Shown: piece by piece, positions 2,392 to 52,229 of the stretch
How the letters are laid out: every line of letters starts with the position of its first letter
Numbering within the stretch: the first letter of the stretch is position 1
Source of the DNA: an uncultured Clostridium sp.
Lineage (GTDB): Bacteria > Bacillota > Clostridia > Lachnospirales > Lachnospiraceae
Reading direction: 5' to 3'
Assembly (NCBI GenBank): GCA_947178445.1
Contig: CAMWYJ010000018.1
Span: forward strand, 1 to 55,273
DNA length: 55,273 nt
Translations under genes and position numbers: made by a program
The notes under the pieces: generated by a model
The model's input: the letters and a program-made list of their open reading frames with translations, nothing else
Told to the model about the DNA's origin: nothing
Databases searched by the model: none

Positions 2392-2443
2392 CGTTAGTGT
2401 AACGTTATAACACCTAACAAAAAGTAAAGAAAGGATTATAGAG

Positions 2444-21703: not shown

Positions 21704-21789
21704 AAATGTATGAGAGTAGAAATACTGTGTCGGTACAAAAGGACACAATATATTTGAGTGAAAAATCTCTACAAGGAGGCATAAATACC

Positions 21790-22755
21790 ATGACAAAAAA
21801 GGAAGAAATTCTAAAGATAGTTTCTGCTAAGCTTCGGCGTATTTTAGAAAGTTCAGATATGGATTTTGAAAAACTGCAGGAGATGCGGATCCGTATGTTA
21901 GAGCCGCTTATTGTGATATATGATGGGGATGAGTTTTTTTTATCAGAAAAAGGTGAGCTGTCAAAGCAGTCGGTAGATGGTTATCAGATTACAGCAGCAG
22001 ATATAAAAGAAACGATAGAATATATCAGCAGTTTTTCTTTATACGCTTATGAAGATGAAATACGGCAGGGGTTTATTACTGTACAGGGAGGACATCGAAT
22101 TGGACTAGCTGGCAAGGTTGTTCTTGAAAATGACAGGGTAAAATCTGTCAAACATATTTCCTTTATCAATATCCGTATGTCCCATGAACGCAAAGGGTGT
22201 GGAGAATGTATTTTACCTTATATATATGAAGAAGGCAGGATATGCCATACGCTTATAATTTCACCGCCGGGATGTGGGAAAACAACTCTTTTAAGAGATA
22301 TTGTACGGCTTATATCAAATGGAAATGATACTTGCCATGGAGTGAGTGTAGGTGTGGTGGATGAGAGATCAGAAATAGGTGCCTGTTATCGTGGGATTCC
22401 TCAAAACGATGTCGGCATAAGGACTGACGTTTTAGATTGCTGCCCGAAGGCGGAGGGGATGCTTATGATGATTCGAAGTATGTCTCCGGCGGTAATTGCG
22501 GTAGATGAGATTGGGAAAAGGGAGGATATTAATGCCCTTGCCTATGTGATGAACTGCGGCTGTCAGATACTAGCGACTGTACATGGGTCTTCTATTGACG
22601 ATATCCGCAATAAGCCGGTACTGCGAAAGCTTGTGGAAGAACGGTTGTTTAAACGTTTTGTAATTTTGTCAGGGGGTCGTAAGCCGGGAAATGTAGAGGT
22701 TATTTTCGATGAGCGCGGAAGTGTACTGTATGACCAGAACCTGCAGTGCATATGA
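21790..22755 (+). CDS. spoIIIAA: Stage III sporulation protein AA (ATPase)
   Basis: A 321-residue secretion-type ATPase that powers or assembles the SpoIIIA-SpoIIQ channel between mother cell and forespore. The Walker A is PPGCGKTT (159-166) and the Walker B is VIAVDE (235-240). ATG 21790 is preceded by AAGGAGG. It is the first of eight genes in the canonical order AA to AH. It acts on the mother-cell face of the engulfing membrane. Confidence 0.96.
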   Translation: MTKKEEILKIVSAKLRRILESSDMDFEKLQEMRIRMLEPLIVIYDGDEFFLSEKGELSKQSVDGYQITAADIKETIEYISSFSLYAYEDEIRQGFITVQGGHRIGLAGKVVLENDRVKSVKHISFINIRMSHERKGCGECILPYIYEEGRICHTLIISPPGCGKTTLLRDIVRLISNGNDTCHGVSVGVVDERSEIGACYRGIPQNDVGIRTDVLDCCPKAEGMLMMIRSMSPAVIAVDEIGKREDINALAYVMNCGCQILATVHGSSIDDIRNKPVLRKLVEERLFKRFVILSGGRKPGNVEVIFDERGSVLYDQNLQCI

Positions 22756-22825
22756 GGCAGTTTAACTTTAAGTGACGAAAGGACTGTCTGTTTTGTTGGA
22801 GAAAGGGAGAAAAGAGGTGTAAAAA

Positions 22826-23353
22826 ATGGAACTTCTTTGCAAAATTATAGGCAGTGTATGCGTTATCACCGGTTCCGGATATTTAGCCATGTCGATGAAT
22901 CATACAATGGAACAAAGGGCAATTGATCTGAGAAGGCTTTACAGTGTTTTATTACAGTTAAAGAGTGAAATGCAATATATGGGAAATACGCTTCCGGAAT
23001 GTTTTATACGGCTAAAAGAAGGGTGCTGTGAGCCATTTTGCGCATGGCTTGATAAACTGGTGGTACGGTTAGAGGAGGAGGATGGAAATATCTTTCGTAC
23101 AGTGTGGCTTGAGTCGCTAGACAGCCTATATCTTAACTCTGCTTTTGAAAAAAAAGATGTAGAGCCATTGCGAGAATTAGCGGACAAGCTTGGAAATGAA
23201 GACGTCAAAGCTCAGCTTAAAGCAATTGACTATGTACTTTTACATATTGAACAAAACCGCAAAGACTTAGAGGGTGAGATAAAGGAGAGAAAGAAGGTAG
23301 TTACATCATTGAGTATATTTGCAGGAATGCTTGTATTAATCTTGTTATTATAG
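22826..23353 (+). CDS. spoIIIAB: Stage III sporulation protein AB
   Basis: A 175-residue protein with an N-terminal hydrophobic segment (about 5-24), a helical soluble region and a C-terminal hydrophobic tail (about 162-175). This matches the SpoIIIAB layout, which resembles GspF-like secretion components. The sequence start MELLCKIIGSVCVI and the CxxxxxxGY-type segment are typical. It lies 70 bases after spoIIIAA. Confidence 0.92.
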   Translation: MELLCKIIGSVCVITGSGYLAMSMNHTMEQRAIDLRRLYSVLLQLKSEMQYMGNTLPECFIRLKEGCCEPFCAWLDKLVVRLEEEDGNIFRTVWLESLDSLYLNSAFEKKDVEPLRELADKLGNEDVKAQLKAIDYVLLHIEQNRKDLEGEIKERKKVVTSLSIFAGMLVLILLL

Positions 23354-23368
23354 GACAAGGGGAAAAAT

Positions 23369-23563
23369 ATGACGGTTGAGATAATTATAAAAATTGCAGC
23401 ATTGGGAATTGTGGTTGCTTTGCTTAATCAGATTTTGAAACATGCAGGAAGGGATGACCAGGCATTTTTTGTGACAATGGCGGGGATTGTAGTGGTGCTG
23501 ACATGGATTTTACCTTACATAGTGGATGTGTTTAATTCTATGCAGGACATGTTTGGACTATAG
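23369..23563 (+). CDS. spoIIIAC: Stage III sporulation protein AC
   Basis: A 64-residue, two-helix membrane protein; LNQILKHAGRDDQAFFVTMAG (around 20-40) is the conserved centre of the family. It has normal length and order in the operon, 15 bases after spoIIIAB. Confidence 0.94.
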   Translation: MTVEIIIKIAALGIVVALLNQILKHAGRDDQAFFVTMAGIVVVLTWILPYIVDVFNSMQDMFGL

Positions 23564-23578
23564 GAGGGCTTTATAAAC

Positions 23579-23962
23579 ATGAGCTTTTTTAAAATTATCT
23601 GCGCAGTGATAATAGGTGTTTTGCTGGCAATAAAGCTAAAGGGGATGGGAAATCCGCTATGGGTATATTTGTCGATTGCGCTTAGTCTGTTCGTATTGAT
23701 TTATGCTGTGAACCGGTTATCCTTTGTATTTGACTTTTTAAATGAGGTAATGAAAGATATTGGATTAGAAAGTGGGTACTTTGAAATTCTGATAAAAATT
23801 ATTGGTATTTCCTACCTTTGTGAATTTACAGCTAATATTTGCCGGGAGTCTGGTTTCGTATCTGTTGCAAGCCAGGTTGAATTAGGTGGAAAGTTAACAA
23901 TGATGGTGTTATCTATGCCTATTTTACTGGCAATTGTGGAAATGATTACGGGGGTACTTTAG
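23579..23962 (+). CDS. spoIIIAD: Stage III sporulation protein AD
   Basis: A 127-residue membrane protein with three to four hydrophobic helices and the conserved YFEILIKIIGISYLCEF segment. The TAG stop directly precedes the GTG start of spoIIIAE, suggesting translational coupling. RBS AGGAGG lies before the ATG. Confidence 0.94.
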   Translation: MSFFKIICAVIIGVLLAIKLKGMGNPLWVYLSIALSLFVLIYAVNRLSFVFDFLNEVMKDIGLESGYFEILIKIIGISYLCEFTANICRESGFVSVASQVELGGKLTMMVLSMPILLAIVEMITGVL

Positions 23963-25228
23963 GTGAACAGATTATTATTTCAAAGAAAAGTTTGGTATTT
24001 TTTTTTGATATTGTGCTTCCCATTTATAATGGTTTGTATGTCTGCGGACTGCAGCAGTGTATATGCTGCAAAATATGATGACAGCCAGGATGTGGCAGAT
24101 GAAAACCTGGATGATATAAAGCTGCAGGATAATATTGATGAAATCGAGGATGACTATTATAAGAGCTTTTATGATACTGTGGAAATGGACGAGCTGACAG
24201 AGGAAATTAAGGAAATCACAGGAAACTATGGAAAAGAGAATGATATTTCATTTGATATGTTTTATAAGATGATGCTTGAGGGAAAGGTAGATGAGGCGAT
24301 TGAGCAGGCTGTTAATAATTTATGCAGCAGTATCGGAGATGAAATTATAAAGAACCGGCAGGTGATTTTAAAGATGGTAGCTTTGGTTGTGGTAGCAGCC
24401 ATTTTTAATAGTTATTCCTCCGTTTTAAAATTCAGTTTTGTGGGAGAGCAGGGCTTTTTTATTACCTATCTTATGATTGCAGTGCTGCTGATGCAGTCTT
24501 TTATGATGATATATGATGTGGCAGAAGAGTCTGTATACTATATTAAGGATTTGACGACCTGTATGCTGCCGGCATTTTATATGTCACTTGCAATGTGTAC
24601 GGGGCTTACCACATCACAAATGGTAAATACTATGTTTTTAACAATGCTTGCCGTAGTTGAAAAACTGTTGCTTCTTGTAATCTTACCGGGGACAAGAATT
24701 TATTTTTTGATTGTAATACTAAATCAGATAAATCAGAAAGATCGGTTTTCCAAGCTTGCAGGTTTGATTAAGCAGGGGCTGACATTTGGGTTAAAAGCAA
24801 TTGTAACTGGAATTATTGGTCTTAATTTAATGAAAAGTATTTTGTTACCGGTTTATGACAATGCAAAATATAATGTATTGCAAAAGGGGCTGTCTGTTGT
24901 GCCGGGAGGAGCCTCTCTGTCCGGTCTTAGTACGATATTAGTGGGGGCAGGTGTATTGATCAAAAACAGTGTAGGATTAGCAGCAGTGGTAATTTTACTT
25001 GTGCTTGGCAGTATTCCACTGATTAAGATTTTTTGCTTCTTTGTTGTGTACAAAGTGATTCTTGCGTTGATCCAGCCAATCAGTGACAGCCGTATTCTAG
25101 CAGGAATCCAAGGAGCTGTAGATAGCACTGGTGTATTGCTGCGCGCTACAGCTACCTCTATTATTTTATCAATATTATCTATTGCGATTGTTTTACTCAC
25201 AACAAATGTGAGACTATATGCGGGGTGA
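23963..25228 (+). CDS. spoIIIAE: Stage III sporulation protein AE
   Basis: A 421-residue polytopic membrane protein with a signal-like start, an acidic extracytoplasmic region (about 35-110) and about seven hydrophobic segments. It begins with GTG directly after the spoIIIAD stop. It is the largest membrane component of the SpoIIIA complex. The TGA stop overlaps the ATG of spoIIIAF. Confidence 0.94.
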   Translation: MNRLLFQRKVWYFFLILCFPFIMVCMSADCSSVYAAKYDDSQDVADENLDDIKLQDNIDEIEDDYYKSFYDTVEMDELTEEIKEITGNYGKENDISFDMFYKMMLEGKVDEAIEQAVNNLCSSIGDEIIKNRQVILKMVALVVVAAIFNSYSSVLKFSFVGEQGFFITYLMIAVLLMQSFMMIYDVAEESVYYIKDLTTCMLPAFYMSLAMCTGLTTSQMVNTMFLTMLAVVEKLLLLVILPGTRIYFLIVILNQINQKDRFSKLAGLIKQGLTFGLKAIVTGIIGLNLMKSILLPVYDNAKYNVLQKGLSVVPGGASLSGLSTILVGAGVLIKNSVGLAAVVILLVLGSIPLIKIFCFFVVYKVILALIQPISDSRILAGIQGAVDSTGVLLRATATSIILSILSIAIVLLTTNVRLYAG

Positions 25229-25686
25229 TGTTTTTGCTGATTGGATGGGTGAAAAGCGGATTATTATTTGGGGTATTTGCCTCTGTTATTTTAATGCTTT
25301 GTCCAAACAAATCCTATATGAAACATATCAGCCTGATAGTAGGGTTACTGTTCATTCTTGTTATGCTGCATCCGATTATGGAGTTATGTTCAGTGGATGT
25401 ATCTACTTATGCCGGTTATATCCGGAATTTTTTGATGTTGGAAACTGAGGATACAGAGTTTTCAAAGGAGAATAAACAGCTTTATGAGTTGTCGTTAGCA
25501 GCGCAGTTGGAAGCTGTATTTGTGGAAAAAGGATATCCGGTAACGGGTATCTATGTGGAAACGGATCAAAATGGAAATGTAGAGGAAATTCGTTTGAGCT
25601 TTGGAGAAGGGGAGTTTGATTTGCGCAATGTAGAAAATTATCTGCACAGATTATTAGGAGAGGATGTGAGGATAACTTATGAATAA
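25228..25686 (+). CDS. spoIIIAF: Stage III sporulation protein AF
   Basis: A 152-residue protein with two N-terminal membrane helices (about 3-23 and 30-50) and a soluble ring-building-like domain. The start overlaps the spoIIIAE stop: GTG 25225 and ATG 25228 are both possible, and the ATG in the TGATG overlap is preferred. The 3' end overlaps spoIIIAG by 8 bases. Confidence 0.92.
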   Translation: MFLLIGWVKSGLLFGVFASVILMLCPNKSYMKHISLIVGLLFILVMLHPIMELCSVDVSTYAGYIRNFLMLETEDTEFSKENKQLYELSLAAQLEAVFVEKGYPVTGIYVETDQNGNVEEIRLSFGEGEFDLRNVENYLHRLLGEDVRITYE

Positions 25687-26275
25687 GGAAATTTTTTCTT
25701 TCTTGCCCAAGATAAGTAAGGAAAAATGGGAAAAAGCAACAATTATTTTCCTGCTGGGTATATTTTTTCTGCTTGCAGCAACACCGGTCTCCGGGTTTTC
25801 CAACAAGAAGGAGAGAAAAACAGACAATACGAAGGAAACGGTATTGGGGAATACGGATGTAGTAAAATCTTCTCAAAATAATGCATATATTGACGGACTT
25901 GAGAATAAGCTAGAACAAACCATAGCAGGTATGGAGGGCGCAGGTGAGGTTTTGGTCATGATTACATGTAAGGATACTGGAGAAAAGATTTTAGACAAGA
26001 ATCAGCCTTATGAAAGTGAAACAGAAAAGGTAAAAGAGGACGGAAAAGAATCAGAGCGTACCAGTATCCACAGTGATCAGGAAACTGTCTTAATTGAACA
26101 GGAAGGTGGCACAACGCCGATTGTGGTGCTTGAAAAGTATCCGGAAATAGAAGGGGTGGTGGTTGTATGTGAAGGCGGCGATAACTCTGCATTGGCCCTT
26201 CGGATAAAAGAGGCAGTTCAGGCATTATTTGACATTGATGCCCATAAAATAGTGGTATGTAAACTGAAAAAATGA
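25679..26275 (+). CDS. spoIIIAG: Stage III sporulation protein AG
   Basis: A 198-residue single-pass protein. It has a membrane segment at about 21-38, then a ring-building-motif domain with LEKYPEIEGVVVVCEGG and ALFDIDAHKIVVC. The family forms the large ring of the mother-cell channel. A charged insertion (about 105-130, Glu/Lys/Ser-rich) interrupts the domain, as is common in SpoIIIAG. Confidence 0.94.
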   Translation: MNKEIFSFLPKISKEKWEKATIIFLLGIFFLLAATPVSGFSNKKERKTDNTKETVLGNTDVVKSSQNNAYIDGLENKLEQTIAGMEGAGEVLVMITCKDTGEKILDKNQPYESETEKVKEDGKESERTSIHSDQETVLIEQEGGTTPIVVLEKYPEIEGVVVVCEGGDNSALALRIKEAVQALFDIDAHKIVVCKLKK

Positions 26276-36698: not shown

Positions 36699-36743
36699 CT
36701 CCTCATAATAAATGTAAAGGCATTTATTATGGGGAGTTTTTTT
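36699..36743 (+). terminator. Terminator after recN
   Basis: CTCCTCATAATAAATG (36699-36714) pairs with CATTTATTATGGGGAG (36721-36736) over 16 bases, followed by seven T residues. It isolates spoIVB from the housekeeping run. Confidence 0.92.
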
Positions 36744-36846
36744 GCGATGGGAAATATGGAGATGGCAAAATCCTATTTTTGATAAGCATTACATTGAAAA
36801 AGGGAGCTTTGCTTGTACTGGAAATATAAAAAAAGGAGGAGCTGTC

Positions 36847-37944
36847 ATGCGGGTTTATAAGAAATTTTTGAAGGGATTGCTGGCATGTAATATAGCATTT
36901 GTTATTATTGTAGCCGGAATGGGATACCAGAGGGAGAGGGGTACTAAGGATATAGCAGAGGCTTTGAATAATTTGAATTCGGCAAATGAGATAACAAACA
37001 AAGAGGTAGCCAGGAGAGATGTAAAAAAGGTAATTCCGGTAGGAAAGACGGTTGGAATCTATGTAAATACGAATGGTATTTTAGTGATTGATACCGGTGA
37101 GGTCACAGATATGAATGGGCAGACATGTACTCCTGCGAGGAATAAGCTGATGCCGGGTGATTATATTATAAAGCTCAACGGTGAAAAAGTGAAGTCAAAA
37201 AAACAATTGGTTAAAAATATTACGGAATGTGATGGTGATCCCCTTGTTTTTTCGGTGGAGCGAAATGGGCAGCAGACGGATGTGAGTGTGGAGCCTGTGG
37301 AGACAGATATGAATATTTATAAGGTTGGAATATGGGTAAGGGATGATTTACAGGGGCTTGGAACGATTACTTATGTGGATGGAACTAAATTTGGTGCATT
37401 GGGACATAGTATTAATGATGCAGATACCGGGGAAATGTTAGATGTATCCGGTGGGCAGCTTTATGAGGCTGATATTTTTGGTGTCGAAAGAGGAAAGGCC
37501 GGTAATCCGGGTGTTATAGAGGGAATTATTTCCTATGATACGGAAAATGTTGTTGGAAATGTCAATAAAAATAGTCTTTACGGTATTTTTGGACAAATAA
37601 CAGATGATTTTGCTGAGAGTATCTCGAATGAGGAGGCCATGGAAATCGCAGATCCGGATGAAGTGAAGAAAGGAACTGCTTATATTCAGTCTTATGTTAG
37701 TGGGGAAAAAGAAACATATGAAATTGAAATTGTAAATATTCATCACAATGAATATGGTGATGCAGAGATGGAAATTTGTGTGACGGATGAAAACTTAATA
37801 AAACAGACAGGCGGCATTATACAGGGAATGAGTGGAAGCCCTATTATACAAAATAGAAAGATTGTGGGTGCTGTAACACATGTTTTTGTAGAGAATCCTA
37901 CAAGAGGATATGGTATTTTTGTGCAGGAAATGATGGAAAAATAA
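36847..37944 (+). CDS. spoIVB: SpoIVB serine peptidase (S55 family)
   Basis: A 365-residue forespore-secreted protease that triggers pro-sigma-K processing. A membrane anchor/signal segment (about 9-26), a PDZ domain (about 95-150, with LMPGDYIIKLNGEKV) and the S55 domain with His187 in FGALGHSIND and Ser329 in GMSGSPI are seen. ATG 36847 follows AAGGAGGAG; the longer ORF from 36742 is rejected because it begins in the terminator T run. A sigma-G promoter is expected but I could not place it. It precedes spo0A, as in other endospore formers. Confidence 0.95.
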   Translation: MRVYKKFLKGLLACNIAFVIIVAGMGYQRERGTKDIAEALNNLNSANEITNKEVARRDVKKVIPVGKTVGIYVNTNGILVIDTGEVTDMNGQTCTPARNKLMPGDYIIKLNGEKVKSKKQLVKNITECDGDPLVFSVERNGQQTDVSVEPVETDMNIYKVGIWVRDDLQGLGTITYVDGTKFGALGHSINDADTGEMLDVSGGQLYEADIFGVERGKAGNPGVIEGIISYDTENVVGNVNKNSLYGIFGQITDDFAESISNEEAMEIADPDEVKKGTAYIQSYVSGEKETYEIEIVNIHHNEYGDAEMEICVTDENLIKQTGGIIQGMSGSPIIQNRKIVGAVTHVFVENPTRGYGIFVQEMMEK

Positions 37945-38280
37945 TATTTATAGTTGAAAAATTTGTGTCGTTAATATTAAAAAAATGTAATAAATTTCTA
38001 AATTTTGTCGTATTCTATAGATATAGGAGAAAGAAAAAAATAATTCTATAAAAAGTGGAAAGATAAAAAAAGTCAAGAAAACACAAGGAATTCTTAGAAA
38101 TGATTTATGAAATTGTGTGATACAACACAATTTCAGTTGGAAGATATAATCGAATGTTTGTTATATGTCAACTTATATTGATAGTTCTATTCTGATATAG
38201 TCTCAATTGGTCGAAGCCACAGTAATTATGAAGAAAGAAAATAATTTTGTGGCGAAAAAATAAAGAAAGGAAGGAATGGT
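37945..38280 (+). promoter_or_regulatory. spo0A control region: promoters, 0A-box-like sites and hairpins
   Basis: A 336-base gene-free stretch. A sigma-A-like promoter TTGTGT (37963-37968)-17-TGTAAT (37986-37991) is visible. TTGTCGTA (38005-38012) and TGGTCGAA (38208-38215) each match the 0A box TTGTCGAA at 7 of 8 bases. AAGGAATT (38085-38092) with GAAAT (38109-38113) weakly resembles a sigma-H promoter with a slightly long spacer. A perfect hairpin GAAATTGTGT (38109-38118)/ACACAATTTC (38125-38134) and a second one, CCACA (38217-38221)/TGTGG (38248-38252) with an AATTAT/ATAATT extension, lie in the leader. The two-promoter layout recalls that of known spo0A genes; assignments are inference. 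Confidence 0.5.
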
Positions 38281-39066
38281 ATGATAAAGGTAATGATAGG
38301 ACATCATGATGAGACGATGCGAAAGAAAATGGAAAACATCATACGTAAGTTGCCACAATGCCATTTGATTGGTGCTTACAAGAGAGGAGATCATTTACTG
38401 TTACATATCAAAGAAGAACTTCCGGATGTGGTCGTGTTAAACCCTGTTATGCCTATTCTTGACGGAATTGGTGTGATTGAGAAGGCACGTACAGAAATAC
38501 AGCTTGATAAAATTCGTTTTATTTTCGTTGCAAGTCCTGAGCAGATTCGAGTATTAAATGTTCTGCGGGATAGGAAAAATGTGAAATTTCTTCCATGGGA
38601 AGAGAATGAAAATACTTTAGAAAAATGTATATTAGAATCACCTAATACTACACATAATGCGGATTTACAGTTAGAGGATATGATTGTACAAAAGGGAAGC
38701 CGTAATAAGGATTTAAATGTGCTTGTTACACAGATGATTCATGAGATTGGCGTGCCGGCGCATATTAAAGGATATCTGTATCTGCGAACCGCTATTTTGA
38801 TGGCTGTGGAGAATATGGATGTGTTAAATGCAGTTACAAAGCAGCTGTATCCTGATATTGCAGAGCAGTATAACACAACAGATACGAGGGTAGAACGTGC
38901 AATCCGTCATGCAATTGAGGTGGCATGGGAACGCGGGAACATTGATATGCTTCATGAATTATTTGGTTATACCATACAGGCGGATAAAGGAAAACCAACA
39001 AATTCAGAATTTATTGCTTTGGTCGCAGATAAAATACGTTTAGAGAAGATGAGTGAGGCATCATAA
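38281..39066 (+). CDS. spo0A: Spo0A-like regulator with degenerate (pseudo-)receiver domain
   Basis: A 261-residue protein. The C-terminal domain (about 140-258) is a near-canonical Spo0A effector: [38 protein letters not shown] and [19 protein letters not shown]. The N-terminal receiver-like domain (1-115) lacks the phosphorylation set: the acidic pair is His8-His9, the phosphoacceptor is Asn54 (VVVLNPVMP), the switch Thr is Ala84 and the Lys of the KPF motif is Leu104. RBS GGAAGGAA precedes ATG 38281. It lies downstream of spoIVB, the normal spo0A position. A second Spo0A-like gene follows 24 bases later. I infer a regulator not switched by aspartyl phosphorylation. Confidence 0.88.
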
Positions 39067-39090
39067 TATAATAGAGGAGAATTAGATTAA

Positions 39091-39921
39091 ATGAGAGAAA
39101 GTATGAAAATTTTTATCGCGACAGAGAGACGTCAGGAGATTTATGACGAAATATTGGGCTGTATGAAGCAGTTCGAATATATTTTACAGGAATCTACGGA
39201 GGATTATGAAGATATATGCTCCCAGATAAAAGAAATAAAGCCAGATATCGTAATTTCAGATATTTGTTTAAATGGAGGAGATGGAATATCTTTACTTCAG
39301 ATGTGTAAGTCAGAGAAGTCGATTGCAGATATGAAATTTGTATTTATTACCAATGTAAAAGCCCAGCGCATTATTGATTTAGCCTATGAGACTGGAGCAG
39401 ATTACTATTTTATGATTGGACAAGAACCACGATTTATGGGCAGGATTTTAGAACGGATTTTGGAGCTTCACTATGATGAGAAGAAACAGCAAAAGCAGCA
39501 ACAGAATCTAACAGATGAACAAAAGCAGTTTCTATTTGAGTCCACGTTAGAGAATGACGTGACAAAGATGATAAGAGAAATTGGAATTCCGGCGCATATA
39601 AAAGGGTATCAGTATATTCGGGAAGGAATCATGATGGCTGTAAAGGATCCGGATATTCTAAATTATATTACAAAATATCTATACCCAACCATTGCAAAAA
39701 AATATCATACAACGACAAGCAGTGTGGAGCGGGCAATCCGTCATGCAATCGAAGTGGCATGGAACCGTGGAAAGATGGATTCGTTAGAAGATATCTTTGG
39801 ATATAATGTAAGCTGCGGAAAGGGAAAGCCAACAAATTCTGAATTTATTGCACTGATTGCAGATAAATTCCGTCTGGAATATCGTGTAAAAGGTTATATG
39901 TCAAATCAATTTACCGCATAG
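39091..39921 (+). CDS. Second, tandem Spo0A-like regulator with partial receiver
   Basis: A 276-residue paralogue of the preceding gene. The effector domain (about 150-265) is again strongly Spo0A-like: [37 protein letters not shown] and [19 protein letters not shown]. The receiver keeps Asp57 ([13 protein letters not shown]) and Thr87 but has only Glu12 in the acidic pocket (ATERRQ) and Ile109 where Lys is expected (YYFMIGQE). A Gln/Lys-rich linker (about 120-145) joins the domains. GAGGAG at 39074-39079 precedes ATG 39091. The 24-base spacing and lack of a terminator indicate co-transcription with the first copy. A role as partner, antagonist or alternative activator is open. Confidence 0.85.
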
Positions 39922-40027: not shown

Positions 40028-41458
40028 ATGAAGAAAATTGTATATGTTGCTTCAGAGTGTGTTCCGTTTATTAAAACCGGGGGATTAGCGGATGTAGTGG
40101 GAACACTTCCAAAGATATTTGACAAGAAAAAATATGATGTACGTATTATCATCCCAAATTATATGTGTATTCCTTCAAAATACAAAGAAAAAATGCGTTT
40201 TATTTCTAATTTTCAAATGGATATCGGAAACCGTTCGGAATATGTAGGGATTATGTATATGGAATATGAGGGTGTTCCGGTCTATTTCATTGATAATGAA
40301 TATTACTTTTCCGGATGTACACCTTATACGGAGGACCGGTGGGATATTGAGCGGTTTTCATATTTTTCAAAGGCAGCGCTTTCCATTTTGCCGGTAATTG
40401 GTTTTAAACCGGATATTGTACATTGCCATGACTGGCAGGCGGGTATGGTTCCTGTTTATCTTAAGACCTTATTTGCAGGAAATCCATTCTTTTGTGGAAT
40501 GCATTCTATTATGACGATTCATAATCTTCGATTTAAGGGAAGATGGGATGTGGAGCATTTAAAGTATTGTACAGGACTGCCGGATTATCTGTTTACGCCG
40601 GATAAGTTGGAATTTCATAAGGATGCCTCCATGCTGAAAGGAGGGCTTGTATATGCGGATACCATTACAACGGTAAGTAACACCTATGCATATGAGATTC
40701 AGACACCATATTATGGTGAAGAATTAGATGGTCTGTTACAGGCAAGGAACCAGTCATTAGTCGGAATTGTAAATGGTATTGATTATGATGAGTATAATCC
40801 GGAAACAGACAAGAATCTTGCTAAGCCATATAATATAAAGAACTTCAAGAAAAATAAAGCGATGAATAAAACTGCGCTTCAAAAGGAGCTTGGATTGCCA
40901 GTCGATAAAAACCAGTTTGTGCTTGGAATCATTTCCCGCTTGACAGATCAGAAGGGACTTGATCTTGTGGATGCTGTTATGAATGATATCTGTCAGGACG
41001 GTGTACAGTTTGTGATTTTGGGAACTGGTGATCCTAGATATGAGGACATGTTCCGTTATTATCAGGGAATACATCCGGCTAAAGTCAGTGCCAATATTTA
41101 TTTTTCAGATGCTTTGTCTCACAAAATGTATGGCGGCTGCGATGCTATTTTGGTTCCGTCAAGATTTGAACCATGCGGACTCACCCAGCTTATGGCACTT
41201 AGATACGGCTCACTGCCAATCGTCAGGGAAACAGGGGGACTGAAAGATACAGTAATTCCATATAATGAATACGAACAGACTGGTACGGGATTCTCGTTTG
41301 CGAATTATAATGCACAGGAACTGCTTCAAACGATTAATTATGCAAAAGAAGTATTTTATAACCAGAAGAAGAATTGGGAGGCAATGCAGGAAAGGGCCAT
41401 GAACCAGAATTATTCATGGGCAGATTCCGCAAAGAAGTATGAAGAGCTATATCAATAA
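40028..41458 (+). CDS. glgA: Glycogen synthase (ADP-glucose type)
   Basis: A 476-residue GT5 glycosyltransferase that elongates alpha-1,4-glucan from ADP-glucose. The N-terminal KTGGLADVVGTLP (16-28) binds ADP-glucose, and the C-terminal SRFEPCGLTQL and RETGGLKDTV motifs are catalytic/donor-binding. ATG 40028 matches the family start MKKIVYVASE; the longer ORF from 39980 starts within the promoter. No other glycogen genes are next to it. The link to sporulation neighbours is positional only. Confidence 0.94.
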   Translation: MKKIVYVASECVPFIKTGGLADVVGTLPKIFDKKKYDVRIIIPNYMCIPSKYKEKMRFISNFQMDIGNRSEYVGIMYMEYEGVPVYFIDNEYYFSGCTPYTEDRWDIERFSYFSKAALSILPVIGFKPDIVHCHDWQAGMVPVYLKTLFAGNPFFCGMHSIMTIHNLRFKGRWDVEHLKYCTGLPDYLFTPDKLEFHKDASMLKGGLVYADTITTVSNTYAYEIQTPYYGEELDGLLQARNQSLVGIVNGIDYDEYNPETDKNLAKPYNIKNFKKNKAMNKTALQKELGLPVDKNQFVLGIISRLTDQKGLDLVDAVMNDICQDGVQFVILGTGDPRYEDMFRYYQGIHPAKVSANIYFSDALSHKMYGGCDAILVPSRFEPCGLTQLMALRYGSLPIVRETGGLKDTVIPYNEYEQTGTGFSFANYNAQELLQTINYAKEVFYNQKKNWEAMQERAMNQNYSWADSAKKYEELYQ

Positions 41459-43868: not shown

Positions 43869-43961
43869 AAAAAATATTATGTAAAGTAGATAAAATGGGT
43901 AAAGTGAAATTAGTTACAGATACATAGATGACGGGAAAATTTTTTATTGGAGGTATTGAAA

Positions 43962-46900
43962 ATGGGGAATTTCGGAAAAAACAAATGGATGGCAATTGGC
44001 TTAATTGTTGTAATGCTTTTTACTTTGATGCCGGTAAACTACAATATTGGAATGGGAAACTTTGGAGTTGAGGACAATAAGACAACAGAACAGACAGAGA
44101 CTTCAGAAGAAAATAATATAGGGGAACAGATAGAATCGGAAGACAAGGAGGAACAGGTTTCCTCTGTGGAGCAAGAAGAATCTGGTCTTGTAAGTACTGA
44201 AACTTTGACTGGCAGTACCGAGGCAGCATCTACGGAAATATCAGAGGGAACTGTAACAGAAGATGTTACAACAGAAAGCAATAATAAAACGCTTACAGAT
44301 AGTGGAATTTCTGAGGAAGACGGTGCTTTGAAAGAGCCTGAAAGTACGGAAAAAGCAACCGTACTGGTTGAAGAGGAGGAAATGGATACCAAATTGGCAA
44401 ACGGAACAGAAAATCTGTTTGTTGGAACCACTATTGATTTGTATAATCTTGTTTTAGAGGCATCTTACAAAGATGAGAATGGTAAAACAGTTGTAAAGAA
44501 TATGACGACAACGGATCAGTTAGAGCTTCCAAAGGATGCGAAGATTGATATGACCTTCCAGTTTGTCATCGGGGATGGCGCCAAGGTGGATTGTAACAAG
44601 GAGTATATCTATCAGATTCCTCCTGAAGTTCGTGTTGATGTAAACGCCACACATGAGTTAAAGGATACTTCTGGAAAGTCTATCGGTAATGTTAAGATTT
44701 CCAGTGATGGAACAATGGCATTTATATTTTATGAAGATGTGATTAAAGACCAGGTATCTGTTCCATTTTATGTACAGTTTGCAGGTGGTTTTTCTTCTTC
44801 AGTACAGAATGATTTAGGGGACCAGGCTCTTCGTTTTCCGACGGCTTCCGGTGAATTTACATATAAGGTTGACGTGACGGATACAGGGGAGAATACGGAG
44901 CTGGAAGAACCTGGTGAAGTGAGAACATACAAAAATGGAAATAAAGTATATAAAGACGGAAAGCCTTATATTGAATGGGTTGTGGAAATTGATAAAAATG
45001 GACGGGATAAGCTGACGGCTGAGGTTGTAGACAATCTGCCTGCCGGACTTACCTTTGTGGAAGGTCAGACGATTACCCTGCAGGACGAGAGGTATGGATC
45101 AAGTGGGTCAGTTAAAGTATCAAGTGTTTCCGGTCAGAAGGTGACCTTTGAGATAAAAGATTCTGATCCAAATTACCGGACAAAATTCAGTTTTTTAACC
45201 TCCTATGATGATTCGATTTTTTCATCATTAGGTTCCATCCAAAACTGGAGTGCTGCCACCGTTGATAATACAGTAGCAGTCAATCCGGAAGGAGAGCCAA
45301 CCGGTTCAGAGGGAAAGGGTTCTGCATATGTCACACCGAAGGTATTGGAAAAGAGTGTGGTAAGTAGTGAAAGAACGGACGCAGACGGCAATAAGCTGAT
45401 TGAATGGAAGGTTGTCATTAACCGGGATGGCATGGATATTGAAAATTCAACGTATACAGATTTATTAAGTGATGGCTTATCATTGGTAGGTGGAATAGGT
45501 GGTGTGAAGGTAGATCCTTCCGGTGCAGGTAGTGTATCAGCAACAGGAGATGGTTTTACATTTCAGCCATCTGCATCCGCCAATCATAAGACAATTACGC
45601 TTACATATACTACTTCAGTTGCAGACTCCACGGTTGACAGTGTGAACCGGGGAAACTTAACAGGCGGTGATAACCATTATAATATATCTGTGAGCAGTAC
45701 GGTACCTGGTGAAGTTTTGCTGAGTAAACGGGCTGTTTCCTATAATTCCGTTACTAATCTTTTTACATGGGAGATTGTGGTAAATGAAAACGGACTTGAA
45801 TTAAAGAATGCAGTGTTAGAAGAAATTTTTTCTGAAAATGCCGGGGATTATACTGCGGGAATGGAGCTTGTCAGTGTATCTGTCCGGGATGAAGGAAATA
45901 ATGCAGGGGAAGATGTAACGAACAAACTGAATGGCAATCGGCTTACGTTAGGTGATATTGAAACAAAAAAAATCGTAACAGTTGTAACCAAATTAAAAAA
46001 TGATCAAAATACTCCATATGTTGATGGACGTTGGTATGGGGCGACTAATACTGCGAAATTGACATATGGTGATGGCAAGGAAGTTTCAAAGAGTGCTTCA
46101 TATAATTTTCAATATTCAAAACCAAATCTAATGGATAAGGATGGCAGGACAACCGAAAAAGGAACCATCCAATGGTATTTGATTATCTATCAGCCTCAGT
46201 TACGACAGGAAAAGATTGAGATTTCGGATGTATTGCCTGCTGGTACAGAATTGGTGGATGGAAGTGTGAAACTATTAGACCGTTGGAATGATTATACGAT
46301 TCAGGAGTTTTCCGGTTCTAATTATCAGTATGACAAAACAGCTAATACACTGAGCCTCACTTTGACAGAGGGCTTAATTGGTAATTACATGCAGAAGGAA
46401 TTTCGGATTGCATATGAAACCAGACCTACGGATTATCGTAATTTAAGTGCAAATAATTCCTACACCAATCATGCAGAAATAACTACAACTTATGAAGGTA
46501 ATGTGCAGGTTACGGATAAAGAGGAGAAAACGGTGACCGGTGATGTAGGTGGAACACTTGGAAAGGAATATGCATATCAGAGCGGAAAAAATTATGTGGA
46601 CTGGTCTGTGAAGATCAATGAGGGCCATTATGATATGTCAGATATTGAAAATCCGGTTATCCGGGATAAGCTCGAGGATTATTTTGACTTTGTGTCGGAT
46701 GACACATACCAGTGCCGATTGTACCGAACCACAAAGAATGGAGTAAGAAGTGAAGTTCCGGCTAGTCAGTACACAGTAGTTGTAATCAATGGAAATATTA
46801 CAGTGAAACTGCCGAACATTGGAACAGATACACTGGAATTTGCATTCCGCACAAAATTTAACATTTCTGCCGAAAGAATCGAAAGTGAAGGAATCAAGGT

Positions 46901-49900
46901 TAAGAATACGGTTGATTTTGACGGGGATGGATTTTCTAAATCTGATACCTCTGACGAGGTGGGGGGAGTTTCCTTTTCGTCCTCATCTGCAGGCTCTGTA
47001 TTAGAGAAGGAACTTCGGATTAAGAAAGTGGATGCAGTAACAGGAGAAGCGTTAAAAGGAGCTGTCTTTGAATTATTTTTTGATGGAGTATCTGCAGGTG
47101 TTGAAACCACTGATGAGGATGGATTTGCTGTTTTTAAGGGAATCTCTTCTTCGACAAGCGGAATTTCATATACACTACAGGAGACTCAGGCACCAGATGG
47201 ATATGTAAAACCGGAAAGTGACGAAACAATTACTATACATGATGCAGACTTGCAGACCGACACTGCTACACAGATCCGGTATATTGAGCATGTAGTGAAA
47301 AATTCACCGATTGAGCAAAAAACAGAGCTTTTTGTATATAAGACGGATGATAATGCAGGGAAGACGACTTCCTTAAAGGGTGCTGTCTTTACGTTATATA
47401 AGAGTCGGTCGGATGCCGAAAAAGGTGTGAATGCATTGGCAAGCCAGACCACTTTAGCAGATGGTATTGTAAAATTTACGGTAGACTATAGTGACGAGAC
47501 AGCGACAACGTATTATATACGTGAGACAACTGCGCCGGACGGATATGCGGGAACAAATACGATTTATGGGGTTACTGTCAATACAGATGGAACAGTAAAC
47601 TATTTATCAGCTGCAACAACTGACGTTACAGTGGAAGGAGGAAGCAAAAAGGCACTGCATGTTACCAATCGAAAAGTGCAGGTTTCCTTGAAACTTACAA
47701 AGGTGAAGTCCGGTGAAGAAACCACAAAGGTAAAAGATGCGGAATTTTCGCTGTACAGTGACGCCAACTGCACGGATTTTATTGAAAAAAAGACTACAGG
47801 TGTAAATGGTGAACTTACCTTTTCAAATTTGGTGTTAGGGAAAACCTATTACTACAGAGAGACAAAAGCACCGAATGGGTATGTTATAAATAATACGATT
47901 TATTCTTTCCAGGCGGGAACAGGAAAAGAACATGAGGATATAACAGTAGAAGAAACTGTCACAGATGATGAGGCATTAGGTTTGATCCGAATCAAGAAAA
48001 TGGATGATTCTACACCTTCAAAAGCATTACAGGGTATTACCTTTACCTTATGGCAGGGTGATGTTCAGGTTATGCGGCCGGGAACAAGCACTCCTTATGA
48101 GGTAAAAACGGATACAAATGGTGTCGCAGTGTTTGAACAGCTTCCATTTGGAACTTATATAGTCAAAGAGGGTGAAAATGTCGGTTATGTTAAAGCTGCG
48201 GACCAGACAGTTGTTGTTGATTCTACAAATGGTTATGACTTAGAGATTGTGAATGAGAAAATCAAATTTGATGTTCTTATAATCAAAACGGATGACTCAG
48301 TTCCAGCAAAACCGCTAGAAGGTGTAACCTTTGGTTTGTATACCAGTTCGGGAAGCCTTTATAAAATTGGCAGTACAGATGCAAATGGCAAATTAAACTT
48401 TACAGATATTCCATATGGTAATTACACGCTAAGGGAGACAGCGGGAATTAAAGGATATATTATGTCAACGGATGTGACATCCATCACAACGGATGACATT
48501 GATGCGGATGCGGATAAAAAACTTTCATATACGTATGTAAATCAAAAGGAGAATGCCAGCATTCGGTTCCAAAAACGTGTGGAAGATACAACAGAAAACT
48601 GGCTTGCCGGGGCAGAATTTACATTATATGACAGTAATGGTTTAAAAGTTGCAACAGCAGTTTCAAAAGCAGATGGTACGGTTTCATTCGAGAATCTGAT
48701 TTATGATACTTATACCATCAGGGAAACAAAGGCACCAACCAATTATAAGCTGGATAATACTGAGTGGCGGGTTGAGGTTACGGAGAATAGGACATATGAT
48801 ACATTGTATAATCTGGTAACCGCAAACAGTCAGAAAATTGTTGATAATACGGAACTGCCAGTAGGATTTAGGTATGTATCGTTTTTTGTGATGAAAAATG
48901 AGATGGATAATACTCCTTTGGCGTCAGCGAAATTTGAATTTTTGAGATATGTTCAGAAAGATAATAAATGGGAATGGGAAAGTGTTGCAACAGCTTATTC
49001 TCAGGAAGACGGTAAGGTGGAGTTTCTGAATATAGGCATTTCAGAGCATCCGGAGGAAGAGCCGCAGTATCAGATTAGGGAAGTAGAAGCACCTCCTGGT
49101 TACAAGTTAAATCCGGACAATGTAAAAACATATACTTATCAAGAACTTACATCAGGAATACAGATATCGGGAAAAGACTTGGTTGGACATCAGGATAAAA
49201 AAGTTGATTTTACAAATGTTCCAGTTATTGAAACCTTTCAAAATGAACAGATTTTAGGAAGTATCCGTGTCCTGAAAACCGGTATTACCAGCTTGAACAA
49301 GTTAAAAGGTGCCGTTTTCGGATTGTATAATCAGGATGGTACTAAATATCAGAAGAATGGCAAGCATTATACAGCAACTACTGATGCGGAAGGTATTGCG
49401 ATGTTTGAAGACCTTCCGATTGGATACTATATTGTAAAAGAGTTAGAAGCACCACAGGGTTATACTTTGAATACAGTTGTCACACCGACTGTTAATATTT
49501 TAGGTGAAACCACAGTGGGTGTTACCTTTACAGATACACCACTTTCTGTTACGGTTAATAAATATGCGGTAGGTGGAGTTACGGAGTTAGAGGGTGCAGA
49601 GCTTGCAGTATATGACAAAGAAGGAAAACAGATTGACAAGTGGACAACTGAAGGTGCTGGAACACAGCATTCCCTGCCATCTTCAAAACTGAAGATTGGA
49701 GAGCGGTATACTCTAAAGGAAATAAAGGCACCGAATGGATATCGGATGGCGGAAGATGTCATATTTGAAATTATGGAGGACGGTACCTTGCACTATATAA
49801 GCGGGGACGGTTCTGCCAACAATAAAAATGTCATTATGCGGGATAAGAGGCTATCCCTTAAAGTCCGCAAAGTGGATGCAGATGCAACGGATACGGATTT

Positions 49901-52229
49901 AACCGGTGCATTATTAGAGGTGATTGAGGATGAGACAGGAGAAACCGTTTATTCCTTTACCAGTACGGGCAGTGAGAGAGATATTCCTTATAATAAACTG
50001 AAGGCACCAGTTAAAGAAGGTGAGTATACAAGATATACGATTCATGAAAAAAGTGCACCGCCACCAACAGATTCTGCGGTAAATGGGTATCAGTTAGCGG
50101 AGGATATTCAGATTGCGATTGGTTATGATGGCACAATATATAGAGTGACAGATTCTGGAATGACACCACTTGCAAATGGTACAGTGGTCATGGAGGATAA
50201 AGCCCAAATAGCTGTGTATTTTAATAAGCTCGATGCAGGAACCGGAAACAGAATAGCCGGTGCCAAGCTTGGTATCTATTCAGTAAATGATGCAACTAAT
50301 AAAATTGAATGGACTAGTACGACAGCACCGAAGGAAATTGAATTAGCACCAGGAGATTACTTCTTCAGGGAGATTACGGCACCAGACGGATATAAAAAAG
50401 CTGCAGATATTGCTTTTACACTGGATGAGGATGGGAAGATGACAGTGACTTCCGGAGATAGCAGTGGTTTGAGTTATGACAAATTGACACTTTCTATGAA
50501 GGATGAACCTCTTAGTATCCGTATGCGGAAACTGACAGCGGAATATGCAGTATTACCGGGAGCAAAATTCGAATTACATGAATCAAATGCGAATGGTACA
50601 GAAGGCAAGCTGTTACAGAGCTTTACAACAACGGTAAATTCTACTTTGTTGGATTATACGAAGCTTAAGGAAGGTGGATATTATCTGTTGAAAGAAACGG
50701 AGGCACCAAAAGGATATAAGCTTGCATTACCGGTATTGTTCTATATCAAGGAAGGAAATGCAGTAAATGCTGTAACGAATGAAGCTTACAATGGGAATCT
50801 GATCCAAATTATGGATGATAATAAGGTTTTCTATATTAATAAGTTGGATGCAGACACGAACCAGCCAATGTCCGGTGTAACATTACGGATTTCCTCCGCT
50901 GATGATGCGGATTTTATACCGGTCGAATGGTTAACGGATGGGAATGTAAAAGAGTTCCAGTACCTGCAGTTCAAGCCTGATACTACATACACCCTGTCAG
51001 AGGTTGCAACAATTGAAGGTTATACTTATGCAGAAGATATTGATTTTTCAATCCATAGTGCGGACGACGTGCTTTATATTGGGAACAATGCTACAGAAAA
51101 TAACCAAATTGTCATGAAGAACCGGCCTTTTAAAATCCAGGTGGATAAGCGGATTACAGGCTCTGATAAACCACTTGCTGGTGCAACCTTAGCGATTAAG
51201 AACGCCAACGGCGAAGTCTTAGAGCAGTGGATAACGGATGGCAAGGTGCATGAGTTAGATGTATCAAAAATCATGGTATCGTTGCAGGATGAGAATATCT
51301 ATACGCTCTGTGAGCTTGAAGCACCGGAATTATATGCCGTTTCACAGCCTATTGACTTTGTTGTGACAAAAGAGGGGGTTGTAAAACGGATAGATGGAGA
51401 AAAGGTTGCCAATAACACTTTAGTCATGTATGATGAATATTGCGGAATTGTTTTCAGCAAGAAGGATGCAGGCGGTAAAGAAATACCGGGAGCGGTTTTG
51501 ACGATTACATCTGTGAATGACACGGAGTTTACACCGATTTCATGGACCAGTACTACAACACCATATAATCTGGATGCTAAGCTGTTTAAACCAAATGTGG
51601 ATTATATTTTGACGGAAACTGCGGCACCGGATGGATATGCGTATACAGAGAGTATAACTTTCAGGGTTGATGAAAACGGAACGGTCTATGTGAATGGTAA
51701 GGCTGTAGATGACAAAACGGTTACCATGGTGGATGATGTGTTGAAACTTTTCATTGCAAAGGCAGATGCAGGTCAAAAAGATAAGCTTTTAGCCGGTGCA
51801 AAGTTTTCCATTCTGTTAGAAGAAACGGATACAGTCATATATTCGTGGACTTCGAAGGGAAAGGCAAAGGAAATTCCTCAAAAGTACCTGCTTGCAAGTA
51901 CGGATGAAGAACGGATTATTTATGTGCTGCGGGAAAATAAGGCACCGGAAGGATATGAACTGGCAGAAGATATACTGTTTTATATTACAGCAGACGGAGA
52001 GATTTATATCTTAGATGGTGATAAGGAGACTCTTGCGGAGAATCATTTGATCACTCTGTATGATAAGAAAAAAGAGGTTTCCTCCGAAAACAAAACGAAA
52101 AAGAAAACTACAAGTAAAAAAACAGGAGATATGACACCAGTTCGTTTTATGATTACATTATTACTCCTTGCTATAGCAGGACTATATTGGTTGTTGTTCT
52201 TCAAAAAGAGGAATAACCGCAGAGGATAA
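43962..52229 (+). CDS. Giant cell-wall adhesin with collagen-binding-like and SpaA/Cna-B repeats
   Basis: A 2755-residue surface protein. Signal peptide at about 1-33; Ser/Thr/Glu-rich linker about 34-140; an adhesin head (about 145-1014) with about five collagen-binding-like segments sharing a WxVxIN/D pattern (IEWVVEIDKNGRD, IEWKVVINRDGMD, FTWEIVVNENGLE, VDWSVKINEGHYD). About 16 SpaA-type repeats of about 105 residues follow (about 1015-2705), each with a GAxFxLY start and an E-x-APxGY end typical of isopeptide-forming domains. The C-terminus has SKKTGD (2718-2723), a hydrophobic helix and KKRNNRRG, a sortase-sorting layout with a degenerate motif. No sortase gene is nearby. ATG 43962 has GGAGGT 7 bases upstream; TTG 43947 is rejected. 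It stands between rpsO and pnp. Confidence 0.9.
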   Translation: MGNFGKNKWMAIGLIVVMLFTLMPVNYNIGMGNFGVEDNKTTEQTETSEENNIGEQIESEDKEEQVSSVEQEESGLVSTETLTGSTEAASTEISEGTVTEDVTTESNNKTLTDSGISEEDGALKEPESTEKATVLVEEEEMDTKLANGTENLFVGTTIDLYNLVLEASYKDENGKTVVKNMTTTDQLELPKDAKIDMTFQFVIGDGAKVDCNKEYIYQIPPEVRVDVNATHELKDTSGKSIGNVKISSDGTMAFIFYEDVIKDQVSVPFYVQFAGGFSSSVQNDLGDQALRFPTASGEFTYKVDVTDTGENTELEEPGEVRTYKNGNKVYKDGKPYIEWVVEIDKNGRDKLTAEVVDNLPAGLTFVEGQTITLQDERYGSSGSVKVSSVSGQKVTFEIKDSDPNYRTKFSFLTSYDDSIFSSLGSIQNWSAATVDNTVAVNPEGEPTGSEGKGSAYVTPKVLEKSVVSSERTDADGNKLIEWKVVINRDGMDIENSTYTDLLSDGLSLVGGIGGVKVDPSGAGSVSATGDGFTFQPSASANHKTITLTYTTSVADSTVDSVNRGNLTGGDNHYNISVSSTVPGEVLLSKRAVSYNSVTNLFTWEIVVNENGLELKNAVLEEIFSENAGDYTAGMELVSVSVRDEGNNAGEDVTNKLNGNRLTLGDIETKKIVTVVTKLKNDQNTPYVDGRWYGATNTAKLTYGDGKEVSKSASYNFQYSKPNLMDKDGRTTEKGTIQWYLIIYQPQLRQEKIEISDVLPAGTELVDGSVKLLDRWNDYTIQEFSGSNYQYDKTANTLSLTLTEGLIGNYMQKEFRIAYETRPTDYRNLSANNSYTNHAEITTTYEGNVQVTDKEEKTVTGDVGGTLGKEYAYQSGKNYVDWSVKINEGHYDMSDIENPVIRDKLEDYFDFVSDDTYQCRLYRTTKNGVRSEVPASQYTVVVINGNITVKLPNIGTDTLEFAFRTKFNISAERIESEGIKVKNTVDFDGDGFSKSDTSDEVGGVSFSSSSAGSVLEKELRIKKVDAVTGEALKGAVFELFFDGVSAGVETTDEDGFAVFKGISSSTSGISYTLQETQAPDGYVKPESDETITIHDADLQTDTATQIRYIEHVVKNSPIEQKTELFVYKTDDNAGKTTSLKGAVFTLYKSRSDAEKGVNALASQTTLADGIVKFTVDYSDETATTYYIRETTAPDGYAGTNTIYGVTVNTDGTVNYLSAATTDVTVEGGSKKALHVTNRKVQVSLKLTKVKSGEETTKVKDAEFSLYSDANCTDFIEKKTTGVNGELTFSNLVLGKTYYYRETKAPNGYVINNTIYSFQAGTGKEHEDITVEETVTDDEALGLIRIKKMDDSTPSKALQGITFTLWQGDVQVMRPGTSTPYEVKTDTNGVAVFEQLPFGTYIVKEGENVGYVKAADQTVVVDSTNGYDLEIVNEKIKFDVLIIKTDDSVPAKPLEGVTFGLYTSSGSLYKIGSTDANGKLNFTDIPYGNYTLRETAGIKGYIMSTDVTSITTDDIDADADKKLSYTYVNQKENASIRFQKRVEDTTENWLAGAEFTLYDSNGLKVATAVSKADGTVSFENLIYDTYTIRETKAPTNYKLDNTEWRVEVTENRTYDTLYNLVTANSQKIVDNTELPVGFRYVSFFVMKNEMDNTPLASAKFEFLRYVQKDNKWEWESVATAYSQEDGKVEFLNIGISEHPEEEPQYQIREVEAPPGYKLNPDNVKTYTYQELTSGIQISGKDLVGHQDKKVDFTNVPVIETFQNEQILGSIRVLKTGITSLNKLKGAVFGLYNQDGTKYQKNGKHYTATTDAEGIAMFEDLPIGYYIVKELEAPQGYTLNTVVTPTVNILGETTVGVTFTDTPLSVTVNKYAVGGVTELEGAELAVYDKEGKQIDKWTTEGAGTQHSLPSSKLKIGERYTLKEIKAPNGYRMAEDVIFEIMEDGTLHYISGDGSANNKNVIMRDKRLSLKVRKVDADATDTDLTGALLEVIEDETGETVYSFTSTGSERDIPYNKLKAPVKEGEYTRYTIHEKSAPPPTDSAVNGYQLAEDIQIAIGYDGTIYRVTDSGMTPLANGTVVMEDKAQIAVYFNKLDAGTGNRIAGAKLGIYSVNDATNKIEWTSTTAPKEIELAPGDYFFREITAPDGYKKAADIAFTLDEDGKMTVTSGDSSGLSYDKLTLSMKDEPLSIRMRKLTAEYAVLPGAKFELHESNANGTEGKLLQSFTTTVNSTLLDYTKLKEGGYYLLKETEAPKGYKLALPVLFYIKEGNAVNAVTNEAYNGNLIQIMDDNKVFYINKLDADTNQPMSGVTLRISSADDADFIPVEWLTDGNVKEFQYLQFKPDTTYTLSEVATIEGYTYAEDIDFSIHSADDVLYIGNNATENNQIVMKNRPFKIQVDKRITGSDKPLAGATLAIKNANGEVLEQWITDGKVHELDVSKIMVSLQDENIYTLCELEAPELYAVSQPIDFVVTKEGVVKRIDGEKVANNTLVMYDEYCGIVFSKKDAGGKEIPGAVLTITSVNDTEFTPISWTSTTTPYNLDAKLFKPNVDYILTETAAPDGYAYTESITFRVDENGTVYVNGKAVDDKTVTMVDDVLKLFIAKADAGQKDKLLAGAKFSILLEETDTVIYSWTSKGKAKEIPQKYLLASTDEERIIYVLRENKAPEGYELAEDILFYITADGEIYILDGDKETLAENHLITLYDKKKEVSSENKTKKKTTSKKTGDMTPVRFMITLLLLAIAGLYWLLFFKKRNNRRG

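Follow-up and report, generated by a model that had tools for sequence, protein, structure and literature searches.

Spo0A is normally switched on via phosphorylation of the aspartate of its receiver domain, a step that is taken to trigger endospore formation in general. The available portion of PMC3533761 names it as the key regulatory switch of Bacilli and Clostridia alike and reports direct phosphorylation of Spo0A by clostridial kinases; the available part of PMC6136694 shows a phosphorelay in one member of the Peptococcaceae. Because direct phosphorylation by kinases is reported in clostridia, Spo0F and Spo0B are not expected as partners. A different kind of developmental control is provided by BldM and WhiI from Streptomyces, which were shown to form a functional heterodimer (PMC4125116, as far as its accessible text goes).

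The window, that is, the whole 55,273-nucleotide stretch analyzed here, comes from one contig of a 165-contig draft genome that is 90% complete. It contains two adjacent genes of Spo0A-like proteins, below called A and B, in the following context.

21706..26275, plus strand: spoIIIA operon, sporulation gene context
36742..37944, plus strand: spoIVB (SpoIVB peptidase), the gene preceding the A-B pair, with the true start probably near 36847, as judged by eye
38281..39066, plus strand: spo0A-A, 261 aa, pseudo-receiver without the aspartate (receiver codons about 38281-38640, effector 38725-39036)
39091..39921, plus strand: spo0A-B, 276 aa, degenerate receiver (effector 39559-39867)
40028..41458, plus strand: glycogen-synthase-like gene downstream of the pair, named by resemblance, without a family search

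The initial annotation had placed two Spo0A-like genes, 24 bases apart and both with the effector domain, at the usual spo0A position. The open reading frames and profile matches agree with this description: the frames are separated by 24 bases, each is preceded by a ribosome-binding-like sequence, and the pair follows spoIVB. Both proteins pass the Spo0A profile TIGR02875 (238.3 bits for A and 225.6 for B; cut-off 200) and the effector profile PF08769, Spo0A_C (156.7 and 151.3 bits, respectively). With the Pfam receiver profile (cut-off 30.2), A is below the threshold at 24.3 and B is just above it at 33.6. Of 30 genus loci with 500 or more bases of upstream sequence, 27 have spoIVB directly upstream of the pair, the same genome from two collections being counted separately. 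In the spoIIIA operon of the window, the AA profile match is over its cut-off, the AB, AD, AE, AF, and AG matches are below theirs, and the spoIIIAH position has no match. Elsewhere in the window (43947-52229) is a gene for a surface protein of 2760 aa that has numerous Cna-B-like repeats and, at its C-terminus, a probable cell-wall anchor, its family being assigned by eye.

In the window copy of A, the positions of the Asp-Asp pair, the phosphorylated Asp, Thr/Ser, and Lys-Pro are occupied by His8, His9, Asn54, Ala84, and Leu104-Pro105-Trp106. B has Thr11, Glu12, Asp57, Thr87, and Ile109, the first metal-binding acid and the Lys being gone. All residues named in the initial annotation are thus present in the translations. 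A shift of the residue correspondence, which might have hidden the phosphorylated Asp, is not seen in the alignment: aligned on LDIIMPxLDG, the Asp-to-Asn correspondence in A is free of gaps. The counterpart of the Lys in A is alignment-dependent (Leu104 if the Lys-Pro step is kept, Trp by MAFFT) and is Lys by neither reading.

The same losses extend over the genus. None of the five catalytic residues is kept in any of 22 A sequences, where the first acid is replaced by Asn (16), His (4), or Tyr (2), the second by His (21) or Gln (1), the phosphorylated Asp by Asn (16) or Tyr (6), and the Thr by Ala (14) or Gly (8), and the Lys column contains Trp in all 22. In B, the Asp is retained in 20 of 21 sequences and Thr/Ser in 21/21; the first acid and the Lys are found in none (0/21 each), and the second position is Glu or Asp in 9/21. 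The full set of five receiver residues is therefore seen in 0/22 A and 0/21 B proteins, compared with 49 of 55 non-tandem "single" Spo0A sequences, a group that includes a few odd receivers and one protein with the effector only, L082. Genus-wide recurrence of the same losses indicates more than chance.

AlphaFold models contain a complete (beta-alpha)5 receiver and an effector domain in both proteins (mean pLDDT 77.9 for A and 87.6 for B), and in the B model the final helix of the receiver and the linker are both long helices (113-138, 142-164). The top Foldseek matches of A are structures of Spo0A effectors and one of a Spo0A receiver. With the receiver fold predicted and catalytic residues lost in the alignment, both proteins are pseudo-receivers, and A is also an aspartate-less receiver, which B, with its Asp in 20/21 sequences, is not. 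Ordinary Mg-dependent phosphorylation would accordingly not be possible for A and is unlikely for B. The initial interpretation of the locus stands in part: the tandem pair with a phosphorylation-dead first member was recovered in most genomes of the genus, and the proposed complementarity of defects was not, since both receivers are defective.

On balance, we lean toward the explanation that A and B together are the working Spo0A of the genus, rebuilt for action without phosphorylation, made together, acting jointly, and controlled by their amount.

The history of the pair can be followed outside the genus, as the same tandem is present in eight other genera. In the tree of effector domains, the 18 B genes group together (SH-aLRT 98), and all 18 A genes fall on the same side of a single branch (SH-aLRT 88), so the gene was duplicated before the genus arose. 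This tree was built by a quick method on few columns for 89 of 155 sequences: 10/22 A and 10/21 B from the genus, all 8 + 8 from its relatives, 19 receiver-less proteins, and 34/55 single ones, with 22 divergent rows left out. The A proteins of the relatives retain all five receiver residues in five genera and are eroded in three (G107, G082, G140), with Lys-His or Asn-His for Asp-Asp, no Lys, and the Asp retained. The second acid of the relatives' B is replaced by Asn, Ser, or Gln in 8/8; G266 has also lost the first acid and the Lys, and G189 the Thr. As this second acid had already changed in all eight relatives, its replacement need not by itself indicate that phosphorylation was lost. Read from the residues and the tree, the pair arose by an old duplication and is eroding stepwise.

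The strongest rival explanation is residual phosphorylation of B, given that its retained Asp makes weak phosphorylation possible. B would then be a weak but real receiver phosphorylated at Asp57, A an obligate non-phosphorylated partner, and kinase input would enter via B alone. Besides the near-invariant Asp and Thr/Ser of B, it is consistent with the three relatives with an eroded A, in all of which (3/3) B keeps the first acid, the Asp, the Thr, and the Lys. A 2025 review of pseudo-receivers (PMC12632262, available portion) allows that those retaining the Asp may be less efficient regulators. However, within the genus the first acid of B is lost in every sequence together with the Lys, and the second acid is kept in fewer than half of them; we regard this scenario as unlikely.

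Among 26 searched genomes of the genus, A and B are adjacent in 20. A is at a contig end in G001, the pair is split over contig ends in G017, and neither gene is found in G003, G008, G011, and G024. Missing sequence can explain the absence in G003, G011, and G024. G008 is an exception to the spoIVB-spo0A adjacency: its intact spoIVB frame is followed by unrelated genes, and A, B, and a close homolog of the glycogen-synthase gene are absent. Partial copies of the spoIVB 3' end (L259, 1326-1468, 4407-4549, and 9988-10130) flank the inserted genes at the expected site of the pair, a pattern that resembles repeated integration at this end of the gene. G008 keeps SpoIIE and SASP matches, and its pair is either in the missing part of the draft or lost. 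In every examined genus locus with both genes, these are on the same strand in the order A-B. The close relatives are uncultured or metagenome-assembled, many of them Lachnospiraceae, and several come from animal guts, including the rumen. We considered decayed copies and a chimeric assembly and rejected both, since the arrangement recurs in independent genomes.

For the few pairs in which synonymous sites are unsaturated, dN/dS is 0.24 in the receivers of A (7 pairs) and 0.33 in those of B (6 pairs); the respective values for the effectors are 0.04 (4 pairs) and 0.07 (2 pairs). Judged by these ratios, the receivers of both A and B are under purifying selection. No internal stops occur in any Spo0A_C match of the genus, and A has acquired newly fixed residues, Trp106 and Cys27, identical in all rows. 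Cys27 is a possible redox or structural site.

The genus is predicted to be spore-forming. SASP matches over the cut-off are present in 26/26 genomes, SpoIIE matches below the curated cut-off also in 26/26, and SpoIIAA in 25/26, 23 of them strong and none over the cut-off. As a control, SASPs are absent from 7/7 Spo0A-less members of the family and present in 27/27 members with tandem or receiver-less Spo0A; this control is imperfect, as an eighth Spo0A-less genome (G031, 67% complete) has a SASP match and no Spo0A match. That the genus is losing sporulation, A and B being decaying relics, could be argued from the lost catalytic residues of both receivers, the sub-threshold matches of SpoIIE, SpoIVB, and several spoIIIA proteins, and the empty spoIIIAH position. 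However, SpoIIE is below the cut-off in 28/28 other tested members of the family too, and intact frames, purifying selection, the fixed Trp106 and Cys27, and universal SASPs do not fit decay, which we consider very improbable. Spo0E-like phosphatases (PF09388) were tried as a test of lost phosphorylation and set aside: 0/36 genomes of family f1 have a match over the cut-off, whether or not their Spo0A is ordinary.

An ordinary Spo0A encoded elsewhere, with the pair as decayed copies, had been named in the initial annotation as one finding that would overturn its interpretation; none was found among the 26 incomplete draft genomes of the genus, and four 99%-complete members (G002, G005, G009, G015) contain A, B, and one more protein, C, only. 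This divergent paralog, matched in 17/26 genomes, is the only other kind of Spo0A_C protein in the genus. In the genome of the window (G000), it is encoded as follows.

Contig 15 (L052), 1947-2756, minus strand: gene of C, with homologs L064-L078

Most C copies have an acid-Asp pair, the Asp, and the Thr, with the Lys read by eye beside an alignment gap. Of 22 divergent rows (16 from the genus and 6 from other genera), 17 have Gln at position 217 and 17 a residue other than His at 218 in the recognition helix, and none has Asp at 258. One may suppose that C took over sporulation and that A and B serve another role, as its receiver looks ordinary in most copies and it occurs in most genomes of the genus. 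Yet a C-like protein is found alongside another full-length Spo0A in the relatives G026 and G032, which argues that C is not simply a replacement. Together with the different recognition helix, the lack of Asp258, and the nine of 26 genomes without a C match, this makes such a takeover improbable.

The effector domains of A and B differ in a specific way. In the recognition helix, for which we assume the B. subtilis numbering and role, positions 211, 213, 214, 217, and 218 are conserved in 22/22 genus A sequences. B differs among these positions solely at 211, where Ser is found in 21/21 genus sequences and 8/8 older B genes; overall, position 211 is Ser in 29/29 B genes and Arg in 30/30 A genes. 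Near the C-terminus, in a region that presumably has a role in activation, A keeps Ala257 in 20/22 and Asp258 in 21/22 sequences. Ancestral recognition-helix residues combined with the loss of phosphorylation residues would also suit an antagonist, A being a non-phosphorylatable competitor at Spo0A sites or titrating B. However, an antagonist is a poor fit to a B that is itself degenerate, and the retained Ala257 and Asp258 also count against it; we find this role for A doubtful and give it little weight.

Changes are also seen at the DNA sites. Upstream of spoIIE, 18 of the 28 genomes from other genera have a recognizable promoter with TTGACA, a spacer of 21-22 bases, and a TATAAT-like box; within the genus, a looser pattern recognizes the same type in 20/20. 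Such long spacers are known in B. subtilis promoters activated by Spo0A. TGTC stands at about the same upstream place in 11/18 promoters of other genera and 14/20 of the genus, whereas TTGCG within 45 bases before the -35 box is present in 18/20 genus promoters vs. 0/18 recognized promoters of other genera. The genus thus has TGTC followed by TTGCG, an altered half-site. Given the relatedness of the genomes, this count is closer to one event than to 18. The exact TGTCGAA box is found before spoIIE in 1/20 and before spoIIAA in 0/23 cases, without excess over shuffles, and the spoIIAA upstream regions have no clear common promoter. A composite TGTCG/TTGCG site was considered as peculiar to the pair, and this idea is weakened, as the site occurs with at most one mismatch at 5/54 ordinary and 2/8 tandem spo0A upstream regions; it is therefore no proof of a heterodimer. 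The altered spoIIE half-site points to a change of the output arm in the lineage whose receivers changed.

The region between spoIVB and the pair contains three further elements.

38115..38130, no strand assigned: palindrome of the TTGTGWTRYAWCACAA type, upstream of the pair
38158..38174, plus strand: TTGT(N7)CAACTT element, present at 17/22 genus loci with at most one mismatch
38193..38214, plus strand: extended -10-like TGNTATAGTC followed by TGGTCGA, named by sequence resemblance only

Arms of the TTGTGWTRYAWCACAA-type palindrome (at most one mismatch) occur in 17/22 genus spo0A-A upstream regions vs. 0.25 expected in shuffles, in 0/80 other spo0A upstream regions (8 tandem, 54 single, and 18 receiver-less), and in 3/29 B-gene upstream regions. 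With at most one mismatch, the palindrome is met once in the genome of the window, as is the reversed control, and its evidence is therefore conservation in place, not rarity. A regulon scan of five genus genomes yielded 0 to 3 places per genome, about as many as for the reversed pattern, and hence no regulon is claimed. The -10-like element is present at 22/22 genus loci (at most one mismatch) vs. 1.8 expected, and the TGGTCGA that follows it is one mismatch from the 0A box TGTCGAA. These candidate promoter elements of spo0A are specific to the genus. Each of the two promoter changes, in spoIIE and in spo0A, may have happened once in a single lineage, the counts being non-independent.

The fixed gene order, the co-retention of both genes, the lasting difference of recognition helices, and the asymmetric spoIIE site favor joint action of A and B; the initial annotation had offered a heterodimer, an antagonist, and a ligand sensor without preferring one. 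In the mechanism that we propose, the two proteins would be co-produced and bind unlike half-sites lying side by side, A through its ancestral recognition helix and B through one with Ser for Arg at 211; a heterodimer or a cooperating pair is the most likely form. How much of the pair is present would be the switch; the new promoter and feedback via the 0A-like box would set this level, and a partner or ligand of the pseudo-receivers perhaps tunes it. The decision would then lie in operon transcription and in the strength of DNA sites. Heterodimerization and the input signal are what we infer from sequence.

Taken together, the results suggest that bacteria of this genus trigger sporulation by some other way than Spo0A phosphorylation. 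A bolder version, which is speculative and in our estimate rather unlikely, puts the sporulation decision fully outside two-component phosphorylation. In it, A and B would be an obligate heterodimer on an asymmetric site, A on TGTCG and B, through Ser211, on TTGCG, and the signal would come in via transcription of the pair, under the genus-specific palindrome and promoter, perhaps with redox input through Cys27.

Another route to a Spo0A without a working receiver, a precedent for the explanation favored here, is seen in the same family. At least 19 other Lachnospiraceae genomes from 18 genera (L005, L094-L111), all with SASP, encode a Spo0A without most of the receiver; this set consists of 18 genomes with a short Spo0A frame plus G028, and 19 of 22 frames shorter than 230 aa among the matches listed were taken. 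The proteins, of about 175 aa, consist of a conserved N-terminal remnant of approximately 40 residues and the effector. L095 (G280) differs in having an internal receiver deletion that fuses the first strand-helix to the last. In the effector tree, 18 receiver-less proteins form a group (SH-aLRT 99), and G280 stands apart at an unresolved fork, so a single origin is still conceivable. A glycogen-synthase-like gene is 3' of the receiver-less spo0A in 3/3 loci read, with spoIVB 5' in one; directly before the gene, spoIVB was found at 2/19 loci (within about 1 to 3 kb, by a distant query). SpoIIE frames are short (388-495 aa) in the eight receiver-less Spo0A genomes tested (L236, L238-L242, L245, L248), and frames of 470-508 aa also occur in several genomes with ordinary Spo0A. 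In the open-licence literature, we found no report for this family of a chromosomal Spo0A that lacks the receiver or has a pseudo-receiver. Were the bolder version true, phosphorylation-free Spo0A would, with these proteins, have two or three separate origins in gut Lachnospiraceae.

If the lineage sporulates and its Spo0A is not open to ordinary phosphorylation, it would provide a natural series for the dismantling of a two-component switch whose output survives, with intermediates in related genera. In a gut survey, the presence of spo0A was used for predicting sporulation (PMC8340488, in its accessible part); this presence says nothing on the mode of its control.

Several described systems resemble the A-B pair, as far as the accessible parts of the cited papers go. 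BldM and WhiI are likewise two atypical response regulators that control development (PMC4125116), but they are unrelated proteins, whereas A and B are adjacent duplicates whose pairing is putative. CmrR and CmrT from Clostridioides difficile are co-encoded regulators, one of them a pseudo-receiver; unlike A and B, they belong to the OmpR family, have a kinase in the operon, and include one ordinary receiver (PMC12548384, PMC12632262). Truncated phage Spo0A similarly represents a Spo0A effector without a working receiver (PMC10294663). However, the phage genes have no receiver domain, and the proteins studied here are full-length, chromosomal, and predicted to have folded pseudo-receivers. With pseudo-receivers and aspartate-less receivers (PMC12632262, PMC4395418), they share the retained fold and the loss of catalytic residues, including the Asp in the case of A. 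The available text of the pseudo-receiver review (PMC12632262) has no occurrence of Spo0A, and that of the aspartate-less receiver paper (PMC4395418) has two, an Asp-to-Glu mutant and its reference. With canonical Spo0A (TIGR02875), the pair shares full-length homology, the effector, the helix residues of A, the locus after spoIVB, and the companion sporulation genes; the pair differs from it in having two genes, receivers without the residues of Mg-dependent Asp phosphorylation, and Ser at position 211 of B.
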